From Rhodospirillaceae bacterium (GTDB lineage Bacteria; Pseudomonadota; Alphaproteobacteria; Bin65): DNA of 64,000 bases. Positions 7,554 through 52,126 of this stretch are shown here, in pieces. Both the position numbers and the translations under genes were made by a program. Position 1 is the stretch's first letter, and the number at the start of each line of letters is the position of its first letter. The notes below the pieces were generated by a model. The model was not told the DNA's origin. It searched no databases and saw only the letters and a program-made list of their open reading frames with translations. The stretch is from NCBI GenBank assembly GCA_026709535.1, contig JAPOST010000034.1:1-64000 (forward strand), in the 5' to 3' direction.

Positions 7554-8447
7554 ATGAGCGCAACGGAACGCCAGTTTGGCGATGTCCTCCTCAAAGTCGA
7601 CAACATCACGCTGCGATTCGGCGGGGTGAAGGCCATCACCGACGTCAGCTTCGAAATCCGCGAGAAGCAGATTTTCGCGATCATCGGTCCGAATGGCGCC
7701 GGCAAGACATCGATGCTCAACGTGATCAACGGCTTCTATCATCCGCAAGAAGGAACGATTACCTACAAGGGCAATCCCCGCCAGCAGATGAAACCGCACG
7801 AAGCGGCCGAAACAGGCATCGCGCGCACCTTCCAGAACGTGGCGTTGTTCCGCGGGATGAGCACGCTGGACAACGTGATGACCGGTCGCCTGCTGAAGAT
7901 GAGCGGCCCGGCGCTGCGCTACTATCACCAAAAGCTCGCCAACCTGCCGGTCATCAACTACCTGACGTACCCGGCCATGTGGTTTGGCGACCTCATCCTC
8001 GATTCGCTATACTGGGGTCCCTACCAACGTGAGGAAGTGAAACACCGCAAGGCCGCGGAAGAAGTCATCGACTTCCTTGAGATACAGTCGATTCGCCGAA
8101 CACCGGTCGGACGCCTGCCATATGGTTTGCAAAAACGCGTGGAACTGGGCCGGGCGCTGGCCATGGAGCCGGATCTGCTTCTGCTGGACGAACCGATGGC
8201 CGGCATGAACCTCGAAGAAAAAGAAGACATGTGCCGCTTCATCATTGATCTGAATCACGAATTTGGTACGACCATGGCCCTGATCGAACACGACATGGGT
8301 GTCGTCATGGATATCTCGGATCAGGTTGTCGTGCTGAATTACGGTCGAAAGATTGCGGACGGTACGCCGAACGAAGTGCAGGCCGATCAGGACGTGATCG
8401 ACGCTTATCTGGGCGTGGCGCACGAAGCCGATCTGGAAGAGAAGTAG
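7554..8447 (+). CDS. livG: Liv-type ABC transporter ATPase (LivG family)
   Basis: This 297-residue ATP-binding subunit powers a branched-chain-amino-acid-type importer at the inner membrane. Walker A is GPNGAGKTS. The LivG-specific stretch FYHPQEGTITYKG and TFQNVALF follow, then the signature LPYGLQKRVELGRALA and Walker B LLLLDEPMAGM. The signature reads LPYGLQ where LSGGQ is usual; this is a common LivG variant. There is an insertion of about 40 residues between the Q-loop and the signature (YYHQKLANLPVINYLTYPAMW and on) that lengthens it beyond the usual 255 residues. It is the first transporter gene, followed by two permeases, the binding protein and LivF. The symbol names the family; the substrate may be an aromatic or aliphatic acid. 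Confidence 0.92.
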   Translation: MSATERQFGDVLLKVDNITLRFGGVKAITDVSFEIREKQIFAIIGPNGAGKTSMLNVINGFYHPQEGTITYKGNPRQQMKPHEAAETGIARTFQNVALFRGMSTLDNVMTGRLLKMSGPALRYYHQKLANLPVINYLTYPAMWFGDLILDSLYWGPYQREEVKHRKAAEEVIDFLEIQSIRRTPVGRLPYGLQKRVELGRALAMEPDLLLLDEPMAGMNLEEKEDMCRFIIDLNHEFGTTMALIEHDMGVVMDISDQVVVLNYGRKIADGTPNEVQADQDVIDAYLGVAHEADLEEK

Positions 8448-8510
8448 CGACCGGAGAGATATTGAAGCGCCAATCCGCTCAAGCGGCGCAGCGCGCAACA
8501 GGGGGAAGAA

Positions 8511-9443
8511 ATGGGAGAGATCCTGGAATTCATCTTCGCGCCGATCCTCATATTCGAGAGTTGGCGCTTTGGCATGGAGGTCGTGATCAGCGGCTTGCTT
8601 GCCGGGGTGATGTATTCGCTGGTCGCGCTGGGCTTTGTCCTGATCTACAAGGCCTCGGGCATGTTCAACTTCGCTCAGGGCGTTCTCGTCCTGTTTGCCG
8701 CATTGAACCTCGCTGGTTTTATCGGATTGGGCGTGCCGATCCCCTTGGCGATCATCCTCACGATCGGGATCATGATCCTGTTCGCGATCGTGGTGGAGTA
8801 CCTCATTCTCCGGCATCTCGTGAACCAGGAGCAGATCATCCTGTTCATGGCGACGATCGGCTTGGCGTTCTTCCTGTCGGCCTTCGGCGAAACCATCTGG
8901 GGCTCCGAAGTGAAGAAGCTTGATGTGGGCATCCCGCAGGGCCGGTTCGAACCCTTCGGAATTCAGATCCAGTATCTCGAACTGACCGCGGGCGCAGTGG
9001 CGGCCGCACTGGTGATCTGCCTTGCGATCTTCTTCAACAAGACCAAGATCGGCCGCGCCCTGCGCGCAGTGGCGGACGATCACCAGGCGGCGCTGTCCGT
9101 CGGGATCAACCTGCGCACCATCTGGATCATTGTCTGGGCCGTCTCCGGGATCGTCGCGCTGGTTGCCGGTACCATGTGGGGCGCAAAATCGGGCGTCCAG
9201 TTCAGCCTGTCCGAAATTGCGCTGAAAGCGCTGCCGGTGCTGATTCTCGGCGGTTTCGAATCAATCCCCGGCGCCATTATCGGCGGCCTGATCATCGGAT
9301 TGGGCGAGAAGCTGGCAGAGGTTGGCTGGGGGCCCTATGTTGGCGGCGCGATCGAAGACTGGTTCGCCTACATCTTGGCGATGGTCTTTCTGGTATTCCG
9401 CCCGCAAGGTCTGTTCGGCGAAAAGATTATCGAGCGAGTGTGA
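8511..9443 (+). CDS. livH: Liv-type ABC transporter permease (LivH family)
   Basis: This 310-residue inner-membrane permease has about eight hydrophobic segments. It shows the LivH hallmark GVMYSLVALGFVLIYKASG with FNFAQG near the N-terminus, and GRALRAVADDHQAALSVGI, the coupling segment to the ATPase, in the middle. The C-terminus is VFRPQGLFGEKIIERV, typical of the family. A GGGGAAG ribosome-binding site precedes the ATG at 8511. It pairs with the LivM-type permease four bases downstream to form the channel. Confidence 0.93.
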   Translation: MGEILEFIFAPILIFESWRFGMEVVISGLLAGVMYSLVALGFVLIYKASGMFNFAQGVLVLFAALNLAGFIGLGVPIPLAIILTIGIMILFAIVVEYLILRHLVNQEQIILFMATIGLAFFLSAFGETIWGSEVKKLDVGIPQGRFEPFGIQIQYLELTAGAVAAALVICLAIFFNKTKIGRALRAVADDHQAALSVGINLRTIWIIVWAVSGIVALVAGTMWGAKSGVQFSLSEIALKALPVLILGGFESIPGAIIGGLIIGLGEKLAEVGWGPYVGGAIEDWFAYILAMVFLVFRPQGLFGEKIIERV

Positions 9444-47123: not shown

Positions 47124-47444
47124 GTGGAACAGCGGATTCACTCGCATATGCAAATGCGGCTTGTCTCACTTCGGGATGCTGAAACAAAAAAGTTCACGAA
47201 ATCAAAACTGGATTTGGTTGATGCGCTGATTGATGAAATGTGGGGGCAATCGGCATTTGATATTAGCCAAAACTTGTACGGCAAAGCATGGCAGGGGAAG
47301 GCCTTGAAAGAATCTATCCCGTATGAGGAGATTCTTCTGTCTGATGACCCTTTGTCGCTAGCCGATATCCACCGAACTTATGAATTGGCTGAAAAGCACG
47401 ACCGGGAACGCGATGCAAGCCACACAGATGACGTTCCCACCTAA
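47124..47444 (+). CDS. Hypothetical protein of an overlapping small-gene pair (antitoxin-like position)
   Basis: This 106-residue, strongly charged protein starts at a GTG (47124) about 11 bases after GGGAG; the ATG at 47148 (MQMRLVSL) is an alternative. It contains KFTKSKLDLVDALIDEMWGQ and SIPYEEILLSDDPLSLADIH. Codon use is poorer in G and C than in the neighbours, which suggests transfer. It overlaps the next gene by 31 bases in another frame. I do not recognise the family; the short, acidic, upstream, overlapping layout is what toxin-antitoxin pairs show, but that is inference. Confidence 0.5.
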   Translation: MEQRIHSHMQMRLVSLRDAETKKFTKSKLDLVDALIDEMWGQSAFDISQNLYGKAWQGKALKESIPYEEILLSDDPLSLADIHRTYELAEKHDRERDASHTDDVPT

Positions 47445-47739
47445 GCTGTATTATGGCCTGCGAGAGGCCAAAGGATTCAAGGAATGCGCTGCTGCGCTTG
47501 GAAGTTATAAGCGATTGGATGACGCCATAGTCGGCCTGTATGAGATTCTGCGCAGCAATCCGAAAATCTATTCAATCGTGAAAAGCATGAAGGACGTTAG
47601 ACTTTGCAAAACTGACCCCATTGGGGATATACTGGGGTTACGATAGTGGTTTAGGATTAAAATGGGAGAGAAACGAATCGAACTTCTTTGGGCCGAAGAG
47701 ATGGAGAAGGGTAATGACCCATGCGAAGTCCCAATGTGA
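47413..47739 (+). pseudogene. RelE-like small protein gene with an in-frame amber stop
   Basis: From the ATG at 47413 the frame reads MQATQMTFPPKLYYGLREAK, LGSYKRLDDAIVGLYEILRS and VRLCKTDPIGDILGLR, then a TAG at codon 78 (47644-47646). It continues in the same frame as WFRIKMGEKRIELLWAEEME to a TGA at 47737. The two halves fit together as one 108-codon gene: the basic strand, x-x-LRxWFRI and ELLWAEE strand pattern resembles the C-terminal beta-sheet of RelE/ParE-type toxins. One point mutation (TGG or CAG to TAG) would explain the break. The nature of the toxin is inferred from shape, not from a clear motif. Confidence 0.55.
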
Positions 47740-48178: not shown

Positions 48179-49144
48179 TCAACTGGAACAACTGCCCCCG
48201 CCCAAGACGCAGAATCGTGTACAGTGTGGATGGTTGAGCGGAACGGCCCCGGTCGAGTCTGCGAGAGAGCGTCCCATCGTGAACCGTTCATCATAGGGCA
48301 ATAGGGTACACGGCACGACAGTCGCGCGATCATCGCCCTTGCGCTTCACCACCATCCGTGCGGTTGCGCACATCATGGCGTCGGGGTTTATCTTGAGGAT
48401 ATCCCAGCACGCTTTGGTGATTTCCGGTACCTCAATGGTATCGTCAAGCTCTGGGAACAAGACCATCATCGCAGGGTCTTGCGCATCAATCGCAATATCT
48501 TCTGCCGCAAACAGGTCTGCATAGCCGGCGCGCAGGTCGGCTTCCGATTCCATCCACGCCGTGCGACCGGCCGCATGCAGCGCGAAGCCGTTATCCGAGA
48601 GGAACTTCAGGCCCTTGATCATGGGTGCCCAAGACCCCGGTCCCCTCTTCATTTCGTGCAGCATTTCGGTATAATGGTCGATGGATACACGCACGATGAG
48701 ACGATCACCAAAGTGCGCGCGCAGTTTCATCAGCGCTTTTTCATGCCGCATCATCGGACGCATTCCGTTGGTCAGCACCAAAGCCTTCAGATCGTCCATC
48801 AGGATACGTTCCAAAATCGGCACAATATCCGGATTCATGAACGGCTCGCCACCGGTCAGGCCGATTGTCTGAACCGGAAGGTCGCTTTCGCTGCTCTCAT
48901 CCAGAAATACCCCCACTTCTGTCGCGTTCAGGTAGCTCAAGCGGTCGTTGGTCGGACTTGATTCGATATAGCAGTTGTCACAGTGCAGATTGCACAGCGT
49001 GCCAGTATTGAACCACAAGGTCTCCAGACGCGTCAGGGATACCGACGCACGCGCTTGCCCGTCAGCTGTAAGCTTTGGGTCGATAAATTTTTGGGAATCG
49101 AGGTTGGGCGTCTGCTTGCACAACGCTTGAACTGTCAAGTTCAT
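48179..49144 (-). CDS. Radical SAM enzyme with C-terminal cysteine cluster
   Basis: This 321-residue protein carries the radical SAM cluster motif CNLHCDNC (Cys51, 55, 58) after TLWFNTGTL, the GGE motif TGGEPFMNPDIV, and VRVSIDHYTEMLHE. Five further cysteines lie in the last 65 residues: Cys259, Cys279, Cys308, Cys312 and Cys319 (HCTRFCVLGGGSC). This is the layout of an auxiliary iron-sulfur cluster domain of SPASM/twitch type. Such enzymes modify peptides, proteins or small molecules. No obvious substrate gene is adjacent; the small genes at 47801 and 47964 are convergent. The only neighbour on its own strand side is a 590-base gap up to tRNA-Gly. Confidence 0.85.
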   Translation of the reverse strand: MNLTVQALCKQTPNLDSQKFIDPKLTADGQARASVSLTRLETLWFNTGTLCNLHCDNCYIESSPTNDRLSYLNATEVGVFLDESSESDLPVQTIGLTGGEPFMNPDIVPILERILMDDLKALVLTNGMRPMMRHEKALMKLRAHFGDRLIVRVSIDHYTEMLHEMKRGPGSWAPMIKGLKFLSDNGFALHAAGRTAWMESEADLRAGYADLFAAEDIAIDAQDPAMMVLFPELDDTIEVPEITKACWDILKINPDAMMCATARMVVKRKGDDRATVVPCTLLPYDERFTMGRSLADSTGAVPLNHPHCTRFCVLGGGSCSS

Positions 49145-49739: not shown

Positions 49740-49812
49740 GCGGGTGTAGCTCAGTTGGTAGAGCACGAGCTTCCCAAGCTTGAGGTCGCGGGTTCGAACC
49801 CCGTCGCCCGCT
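49740..49812 (+). tRNA. tRNA-Gly (anticodon CCC)
   Basis: The cloverleaf is complete: acceptor GCGGGTG/CGCCCGC, D-arm GCTC-AGTTGGTA-GAGC, anticodon stem CGAGC/GCTTG (one G-T pair) with loop TTCCCAA (anticodon CCC), T-arm GCGGG-TTCGAAC-CCCGT. Discriminator T at 49812; CCA is not encoded (CCG follows). It is flanked by the IS1380 remnant. Confidence 0.96.
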
Positions 49813-49923
49813 CCGGTTGTCTCGCTCGCTAATGGTTTAGACTCAATCTGGGTTCTTACGGACCGGCGTTGACTTGAGGCATGGTAAAGTCGTTCGGATA
49901 CCGGAACCGTCTCTGTCATCAGC

Positions 49924-50300
49924 GTGTTGAAGCCCTCGGGGCGCCTGGTCAAGGCGGGTTTCGATGGTGGGTTTGTGATCAGCGACATTGGCGCGCTCTT
50001 GTTACGCCAGCAGGTATTCGAGGTTGCGCCAGGCCATGAGGACCTGAACGACCACACCGATCAGCGCCACGACCCTGCACTGCAGACCGCTTCCGGTCGC
50101 GACCGAGCCTTGGCGAGTGCGCCGACGTTGTGCCGCTTCGAGAACCGGCTGAGCGCGGGCGATCCGCGCGGTTCCGGTCGAGAGCTTTATTGCCACCTTC
50201 GAGGAAGCCGCCGGAAGAGATCGTGCTGGACGTCGATGCGACGGACGATGCGGTGCACGGCGATCAGGATAGGCGCTTCTTCCAAGGGCTACGACAACAG
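49924..50300 (+). pseudogene. Degenerate IS1380-family transposase
   Basis: One frame gives FDGGFVISDIGALLLRQ, then VFEVAPGHEDLNDHTDQRHD, PALQTASGRDRALASAPTLC and RFENRL. This is the N-terminal block of an IS1380-type DDE transposase (usual order: A-DGG-x-SD-GG-LLL, then G-x-EDxNDHxxLRxDP). A second frame continues with PPEEIVLDVDATDDAVHGDQ and DRRFFQGL (the catalytic Asp block EIVLDxDATDDxxHG). About 30 residues are lost between LLLRQ and VFEVAPGHED, there is a frameshift near 50165, and the C-terminal third is missing. No terminal inverted repeats were found by eye. Confidence 0.8.
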
Positions 50301-50524
50301 CATCGCCACCGACAACGCCAGCGAGCGCCCGGAACACGCGAAATCCGCCTCAATCCACGAACCCCGCCCGTTCATAAGATAGCCGGGATAGATAGGTCGC
50401 GCCGAAATGCAAGATACTTTTCCATCCAGCATTCGGTAGCCTCTCTTTACGAGCTTAAGGCCGTATCGTCTATTGCGATTGGCGTTTTCAAATGCGAGAC
50501 GACCTCTTTGTGGAGCAGATTCTT

Positions 50525-52126
50525 TCAGGATTTCAGTGCATCTTTCCATACGCCGATCAGGACGCCCATGTTGCGTGATCGGCCAAGGGCTGATTCGATC
50601 TCCTCATCTGATTTCGTTGTTCGTGTTCGGCGGGTGCGCAGCCAAGTAAAAATCCGCTCATGAAGTTCGGCCCGAATGGCAGCATGCTCTTCGCTCTCGC
50701 CGAGGTCGACGAGTTCGTCCGCGTCGCTTGCCAGATCAAACAGCTGCGGCCTGAAGCCTTCCCAAATAATGTATTTCCATTCTTCGGTGCGTACACAATA
50801 GGCCTTGCACTCATGCGCCCGCAGGCCGAGCCATTCGCGGGCGTGCCGATAGGAGTAGTCACATTCCGAGAAGGTGGCATCGCGCCATTCCTCCAACGCG
50901 CCGCCGCGCAGCAGAGATAGAATCGAGTGGCCTTCCATCCAGTGATCCTGTTCCACCGGATCGCCGCCCAATGCTTCGTAGAAAGTCGGCACCATATCAA
51001 TGCATTCGACGAAACGGCTGTCTTCGGAACCGCGTGTCCCATCGGCGGCCGAATCCGGATCATAGATGATCATCGGCAGCCGCAGGACGCAATCGTGGAA
51101 CAACTCCTTCTCACCCAACCAGTGATCACCGAGATAGTCACCATGATCTGCCGTCAGGACGATCATGGTGTCGTCCATCCGGCCAGTCATTTCCATGTAG
51201 GCAAAGAGCTGCCCCAATTGATCATCGATCTGCTTGATCAGACCCATATAAACCGGGATTACATGCCTGCGGATGTGATCCTGGCTGAAGCTCTGGCTGT
51301 CTTCGTGCTGTTGGAAGGCTGCGTACACGGGATGATTGCTCTGCCGTTCCCGGTCGCTTTTGACCGCCGGCACAACATCCTCGGCGCTGTAAATCTTGTG
51401 GTAGGGCGCAGGCGCGATATAGGGCCAATGCGGCTTAATATAAGACAGGTGCAGGCACCAAGGTTGAGCGTCGCCACATTCCTCCATGAATTCGCGAGCC
51501 CGCATCGTCATATATGGCGTTTCAGAATGCTGTTCGGATACCCGCGCCGGAAGGTGAGCGTATCGCATTTCCCATCCGCTAACGAGATCACCATTCTCGT
51601 CGATCGCTGAAGCGCACCAAGCCTGCCAAGGATTCTCGCCTTTGTAGCCTTGCTTGTTGAGCCAGCGGTTGTAAGCAAAATCCTTTTGACCATAACCATC
51701 GGGATGCAGACCATCATCGCGTTCGTAGGGCTCAAAACCAGCCTGTGTCGCCAAGACGCCGTAAGGCGAAAGCTTGTCAACCCCCAACCTGTCCAGCCCA
51801 GGCCCATCGACCTGCATGTGGGTCTTGCCGGCCAATGCCGTACGTACGCCAAGCGTCCGAAGGTGATCGCCCATCGTGCGGATGTTCAGCGGCAGCGGCA
51901 CCCGGTTCCAGTTTGCGCCATGACTGCACATATATCGACCGGTATAGAACGACATCCGGGATGGGCCGCAGACTGCCGACTGAGTGAAGGCCCGGGTAAA
52001 TCGCACACCCTTTGCCGCCAGAGCATCAATGTTCGGCGTCTGGATTGTCGGATGCCCCATACAGGACAGGTAATCCGCCCGCAACTGGTCACACATGATG
52101 AACAGGACGTTTCGTATTTTACTCAT
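50525..52126 (-). CDS. Sulfatase-family hydrolase
   Basis: This 533-residue member of the alkaline-phosphatase/sulfatase superfamily hydrolyses sulfate or phosphonate esters. The metal site residues are in FIMCDQLRADYLSCMGH, and the catalytic Cys53 is in SAVCGPSRMSFYTGRYM, the C-x-P-S-R pattern that is oxidised to formylglycine. The C-terminal metal ligands are in LTADHGDYLGDHWLGEKELF. The C-x-P-S-R motif plus length near 530 fit arylsulfatase or choline-sulfatase-like enzymes. No signal peptide is visible, so it is probably cytoplasmic. A matching maturase is not next to it. Confidence 0.92.
   Translation of the reverse strand: MSKIRNVLFIMCDQLRADYLSCMGHPTIQTPNIDALAAKGVRFTRAFTQSAVCGPSRMSFYTGRYMCSHGANWNRVPLPLNIRTMGDHLRTLGVRTALAGKTHMQVDGPGLDRLGVDKLSPYGVLATQAGFEPYERDDGLHPDGYGQKDFAYNRWLNKQGYKGENPWQAWCASAIDENGDLVSGWEMRYAHLPARVSEQHSETPYMTMRAREFMEECGDAQPWCLHLSYIKPHWPYIAPAPYHKIYSAEDVVPAVKSDRERQSNHPVYAAFQQHEDSQSFSQDHIRRHVIPVYMGLIKQIDDQLGQLFAYMEMTGRMDDTMIVLTADHGDYLGDHWLGEKELFHDCVLRLPMIIYDPDSAADGTRGSEDSRFVECIDMVPTFYEALGGDPVEQDHWMEGHSILSLLRGGALEEWRDATFSECDYSYRHAREWLGLRAHECKAYCVRTEEWKYIIWEGFRPQLFDLASDADELVDLGESEEHAAIRAELHERIFTWLRTRRTRTTKSDEEIESALGRSRNMGVLIGVWKDALKS

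Follow-up and report, generated by a model that had tools for sequence, protein, structure and literature searches.

An unnamed radical SAM subfamily with a second conserved cysteine cluster, a candidate for the ArsS place in an arsenosugar-type pathway

What might a radical SAM enzyme do when, besides its SAM-binding site, it carries a second group of cysteines and scores below the cut-off of every curated family? This question is raised by a gene in a stretch of 64,000 nucleotides of Rhodospirillaceae bacterium DNA (hereafter, the window; Table 1). An earlier note on the sequence had described a CxxxCxxC radical SAM enzyme with five cysteines in its last 65 residues, and had placed it in accessory DNA, near small genes and without a known partner, with a peptide or protein as the possible substrate. 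We therefore followed the protein, its relatives and their gene neighbourhoods.

Radical SAM core and C-terminal cysteines

The 321-aa protein matches Pfam Radical_SAM (PF04055) over residues 46-187 with 49.4 bits (cut-off 29.5), and its last 65 residues do hold five cysteines (259, 279, 308, 312 and 319), with a sixth, 246, just N-terminal of them. We aligned 42 members, namely the window protein, L001 and 40 loci with wide flanks; identity to the window protein across the others is 35-70%. Nine cysteines (51, 55, 58 and the six C-terminal ones) are identical in all 42, an invariance that puts the cysteine pattern beyond chance and bears out what the earlier note had read in both regions. The tenth cysteine, C9, is not conserved among the aligned members. 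The C-terminal spacing C-x12-C-x19-C-x28/29-C-x3-C-x6-C is held in nearly all alphaproteobacterial rows (the third C-terminal cysteine gap is 37 in L114), while the group of the gammaproteobacteria and L080 has its own spacing, slightly different but fixed, the gammaproteobacterial rows ending in C-x2-C-x6-C. Its sequence thus marks the protein as a genuine radical SAM enzyme, without a curated family, in which a second group of conserved cysteines is arranged much as in twitch/SPASM domains. An AlphaFold model made from three sequences had a mean pLDDT of 43, too poor for use.

Table 1. Features of the window around the radical SAM gene
Feature	Position	Strand	Remarks
Two overlapping small ORFs	47124-47646	+	106 and 88 aa, without family match
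Radical SAM protein, ArsS-like, below all curated cut-offs	48179-49144	-	321 aa ORF, ATG start
C-terminal auxiliary cysteine region (C246, C259, C279, C308, C312, C319)	48188-48409	-	invariant 42/42
CxxxCxxC of the SAM-binding [4Fe-4S] cluster (residues 51-58; C51/C55/C58)	48971-48994	-	counted from ORF
tRNA-Gly(CCC), divergent neighbour upstream of the radical SAM gene	49740-49814	+	marks conserved chromosomal site
Decayed transposase fragment (DDE_Tnp_1_4) over two frames	49924-50382 and 50130-50663	+	
Sulfatase/phosphodiester-hydrolase family protein, PehA-like	50525-52126	-	316 of 900 bits

The suggested likeness to SPASM/twitch domains stands as far as the layout goes, since twitch/SPASM enzymes also carry a C-terminal cysteine cluster after the core, but not at the level of the twitch model NF033640, which gives 42.9 bits against a cut-off of 170. 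The cysteine spacing of the SPASM motif, moreover, differs from that of the window protein. The profile search that had been proposed for finding the subgroup led to no well-characterised group, as no curated NCBIfam model reached its cut-off. The best score was that of the Rv1681 family (NF049973; core only, 97.2 bits against 380), followed by WgkB, ArsS and AlbA. Unlike the window protein, the Mycolicibacterium member of the Rv1681 family that we examined (536 bits) lacks an auxiliary cluster of cysteines. On a Mycolicibacterium plasmid (L105, 5803-12804), genes for an Rv1681-family radical SAM protein, a PhnD-like protein, a TrsS-like radical SAM protein and a DVU_1556-like methyltransferase adjoin.

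ArsS was compared in greater depth. TIGR04167 (ArsS) gives the window protein 57.3 bits against a curated cut-off of 300, and DUF3641 (PF12345), on which a true ArsS scores 184.8 bits, is absent among its Pfam matches; with both failing, the protein lies outside ArsS as curated. A profile comparison with five ArsS sequences gave a probability of 98.6 (E 4.9e-16) over residues 39-221. In a forced full-length alignment, C259, C279, C308, C312 and C319 meet, one to one, the five C-terminal cysteines that are invariant in the five ArsS aligned; the C-terminal part alone matched ArsS weakly (probability 40). The two proteins have the CxxxCxxC core and a similar length in common, and their five C-terminal cysteines follow in matching order with similar, not identical, spacing, ArsS ending in C-x2-C-x7-C, to which the gammaproteobacterial ending is closer. 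They differ in that the window protein has the sixth auxiliary cysteine, and FCVLGG near the end where ArsS has GCTAG. The subfamily also forms a separate clade, mostly without ArsM in the genome.

Distribution and chromosomal site

Of 289 genomes sampled across Alphaproteobacteria, 83 have close members (E <= 1e-30), and a phylum-wide profile search (E <= 1e-40) found members in 37 of 398 genomes, 7 of these outside that class. In a tree of 62 rows, made by a quick method, with many weak forks and with L106 and L108 left out by a pattern filter, the gammaproteobacterial members and L080 are separated from a large alphaproteobacterial group, to which the window protein and its congeners belong. 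Searches of the literature by family, neighbour-gene and arsenosugar terms, judged by title, returned no publication on this subfamily.

This spread within the class already speaks against accessory DNA, as does the site itself. A divergent tRNA-Gly(CCC) lies upstream of the gene at 23 of 63 loci, the window counted, the one further tRNA among the loci being a tRNA-Gln. Downstream, within 8 kb, we found metZ at 21, apaG at 24, folE at 18 and trkH at 25 of the 63 loci. The recurrent tRNA upstream and this shared gene order downstream indicate that the gene has long occupied this place in the chromosome. At the window locus the metZ side is missing, and a transposase fragment separates the tRNA-Gly from the sulfatase gene.

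The small genes nearby did not prove to be partners. The two overlapping ORFs of Table 1 have no match in the loci of 62 relatives, and no conserved small gene occurs within 2 kb of the radical SAM gene in 63 loci, where such small ORFs as do recur resemble shadows of metZ or the tRNA. The short conserved peptide gene that had been proposed as a test was therefore missing, and modification of a peptide or protein found no precursor gene in its favour. A reading as phage cargo was dropped, given that a phage collection held no match to the protein and that PHROGs showed similarity to the radical SAM core only. A role in defence was also dropped, since PADLOC shows only weak similarity to the viperin core.

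An arsenosugar-type gene set around relatives

When the conserved neighbours of the homologues were listed, as had also been advised, they comprised metZ-apaG-folE-trkH, the tRNA-Gly(CCC) and an arsenosugar-type gene set; the statement that no partner is known could thus not be upheld for the relatives. The set consists of ArsM, purine nucleoside phosphorylase (PNP), TIGR04282/TIGR04283 transferases and VTT/FAD reductases, and the same set surrounds true ArsS. Three gammaproteobacterial loci show genes of it in the orders TIGR04282 - ArsM - subfamily gene - PNP - TIGR04283 (L106), DUF547 - TIGR04282 - ArsM - subfamily gene - PNP (L108) and TIGR04282 - TIGR04283 - ArsM - subfamily gene - VTT/FAD fusion (L107). 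ArsM lies directly upstream in all three, and PNP directly downstream in L106 and L108; in the alphaproteobacterial L059, PNP lies 1 kb from the subfamily gene. The neighbouring methyltransferase is a good ArsM, matching 5evj (E 1.5e-101) and 4fr0 (E 1.6e-86) over nearly its full length, and ArsM occurs near the subfamily gene in both subclades. An annotated Roseomonas plasmid carries TIGR04282, DUF547, another radical SAM gene, the subfamily gene, PhnD/PhnE/ATPase, metallophosphoesterase, FAD reductase and VTT genes; its arrangement of DUF547, second radical SAM gene and PhnD beside the subfamily gene was seen on this one plasmid only.

True ArsS is flanked by a VTT/FAD fusion on one side and a PNP gene on the other in G024 and G156 (L144 and L145), with TIGR04282, TIGR04283, metallophosphoesterase and PhnD/PhnE nearby, and annotated ArsS loci, those of Acinetobacter portensis, Thiodictyon and Pseudanabaena among them, have overlapping gene sets. 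Since the neighbours of the relatives match those of true ArsS loci (ArsM, PNP, TIGR04282/TIGR04283, VTT/FAD, DUF547, metallophosphoesterase and PhnD/PhnE-like genes), the subfamily appears to fill, within this set, the position that ArsS has at its own loci. ArsS over its cut-off was found in 2 of 289 class genomes, both non-members, and in none of the 15 member genomes tested.

At least one gene of the set lies within 8 kb in 29 of 63 member loci and at least two in 14 of 63, with seeds from both cluster kinds, against 2 and 0 of 42 control stretches (Fisher p 2e-6 and 7e-4); the member counts are inflated, because some seeds were taken from member loci. The controls, 17 kb each, comprised 40 from 20 member genomes at round-number positions and 2 from the window. 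Seeds from ArsS clusters alone had a match within 9 kb in 24 of 65 loci, a count without control. For single genes the numbers are small (ArsM near 6 of 63, p 0.08; PNP near 3 of 63, p 0.27).

Genome-wide, TIGR04283 exceeds its cut-off in 72 of 83 member genomes against 20 of 206 others, and in 45 of 50 against 10 of 106 when counted per family code (156 codes), which does not fully remove shared ancestry. The TIGR04283/TIGR04282 pair often lies beside moaB (named by eye from the sequence), a housekeeping-like place, so its co-occurrence with the subfamily may partly follow phylogeny. Among the 289 class genomes, five have ArsM of the A2 type, and each of these five also has the subfamily gene (chance about 0.002 by arithmetic), which in three of them (L054, L075 and L080) lies near ArsM; 4 of 7 gammaproteobacterial members have this ArsM too. 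It was not found in 78 of 83 alphaproteobacterial member genomes. This lack is not decisive, since two ArsS-bearing alphaproteobacteria also have no ArsM by A2 or NF038099.

Many alphaproteobacterial loci adjoin metZ-apaG-folE-trkH instead of the arsenosugar-type set. The window locus has no gene of the set within 8 kb, and its genome no ArsM over cut-off by A2 and two further models. The genome does have the TIGR04283/TIGR04282 pair, as well as a copy 81% identical to the FAD reductase that lies 3-6 kb from the subfamily gene in three congeners; no VTT was found in the stretch around this copy.

Proposed role and alternatives

We propose, at about even odds (roughly 0.5), that this mainly alphaproteobacterial subfamily occupies the ArsS place in an arsenosugar-type pathway, where it would probably attach a deoxyadenosyl group to a methylated arsenical. 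Because relatives often lie among arsenosugar-building genes, the enzyme may represent a second type of carbon-arsenic bond-forming enzyme that has so far been overlooked. The CxxxCxxC cluster would cleave SAM to a 5'-deoxyadenosyl radical, which, as has been reported for ArsS, would combine with a trivalent methylated arsenical, while an auxiliary cluster on the C-terminal cysteines would pass an electron or orient the substrate. The purine nucleoside phosphorylase would then remove adenine, and the TIGR04282/TIGR04283 transferases would finish the sugar; a phosphorylase gene beside the subfamily gene would fit a 5'-deoxyadenosyl product. The window's own protein would share this role, substrate and chemistry, despite a genome without recognisable ArsM.

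Adenosylation of arsenic is the reported activity of ArsS (PMC12159101), and PMC8552651 treats Synechocystis ArsS together with ArsM. The latter paper also describes ArsL of arsinothricin synthesis, a 428-aa radical SAM enzyme that forms a carbon-arsenic bond beside ArsM; its CX3CX2C lies at 194-201, and its SAM cleavage is non-canonical. The likeness of ArsL to the window protein is one of description only. The portion of PMC12608789 that was available contains nothing on the ArsS pathway.

Other explanations were weighed against this role. The pathway could be of the same type and yet end in a glycosylated or phosphonate-like metabolite without arsenic; the transferases would then owe their 'arsenosugar' names to association. 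ArsM is indeed missing from most member genomes, TIGR04282 is a hypoth_equivalog model, and both kinds of cluster contain a metallophosphoesterase as well as PhnD/PhnE-type transporter genes; against these stands the ArsM near the gene in both subclades, well similar to solved arsenite methyltransferases, and we regard such a product as improbable, though it is the strongest of the rivals. We would give slightly less credit to a core role in a different process (sulfur/methionine, RNA or cofactor metabolism) tied to metZ-apaG-folE-trkH or to the tRNA-Gly site. The recurrence of these neighbours would suit it, but they are mutually unrelated and look like an inherited order, and the gene was not found in 206 of 289 class genomes.

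Maturation of a ribosomal peptide or protein by a SPASM/twitch enzyme, which the earlier note had suggested, would explain the layout of the auxiliary cysteines and the weak core similarity to the peptide maturases WgkB, AlbA and YydG; with every maturase model far below its cut-off and the 63 loci lacking a conserved small gene, we consider it very unlikely. Hardly credible is an anaerobic sulfatase-maturating enzyme (anSME) serving the neighbouring Cys-type sulfatase, even if that gene lies 1.4 kb away and its product contains CGPSR, which resembles a formylglycine modification site. The best anSME match in a PDB profile search reached only E 0.015, no sulfatase occurs among the neighbour families of relatives as listed, and the seven-cysteine pattern of anSMEs differs from that of the window protein.

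Few radical SAM enzymes are, to our knowledge, known to form carbon-arsenic bonds (ArsS and ArsL), and, as far as we know, the organisms that produce environmental arsenosugars and arsenolipids are still unclear. If the subfamily does hold the ArsS slot, this widespread family would enlarge the set of possible arsenosugar and arsenolipid producers. More tentatively, a second, ArsS-displacing radical SAM family could form carbon-arsenic bonds in many Alphaproteobacteria and some Gammaproteobacteria, including ArsM-less bacteria that would take up environmental dimethylarsenic; arsenosugars or a new organoarsenical would then have a source that has gone unrecognised. If the product is not an arsenical, the name 'arsenosugar' would have to be reconsidered for the entire gene set.

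Some further radical SAM genes were noted. G634 and G104 each carry two copies of the subfamily in different contexts (L113/L114 and L115/L116), and a Marinobacter plasmid (L104, about 8001-8874) holds an unannotated two-piece relative of 32% identity. The window's own genome has a second radical SAM gene, apparently split over frames, beside the TIGR04283 pair (L134 on contig C3, about 7580-8490, minus strand). Finally, a contig called viral (L159, 1740-3936) ends in a close member beside an integrase-like ORF, recognised by eye, and a tRNA-like shadow, an arrangement that may mark a prophage at the same tRNA site.
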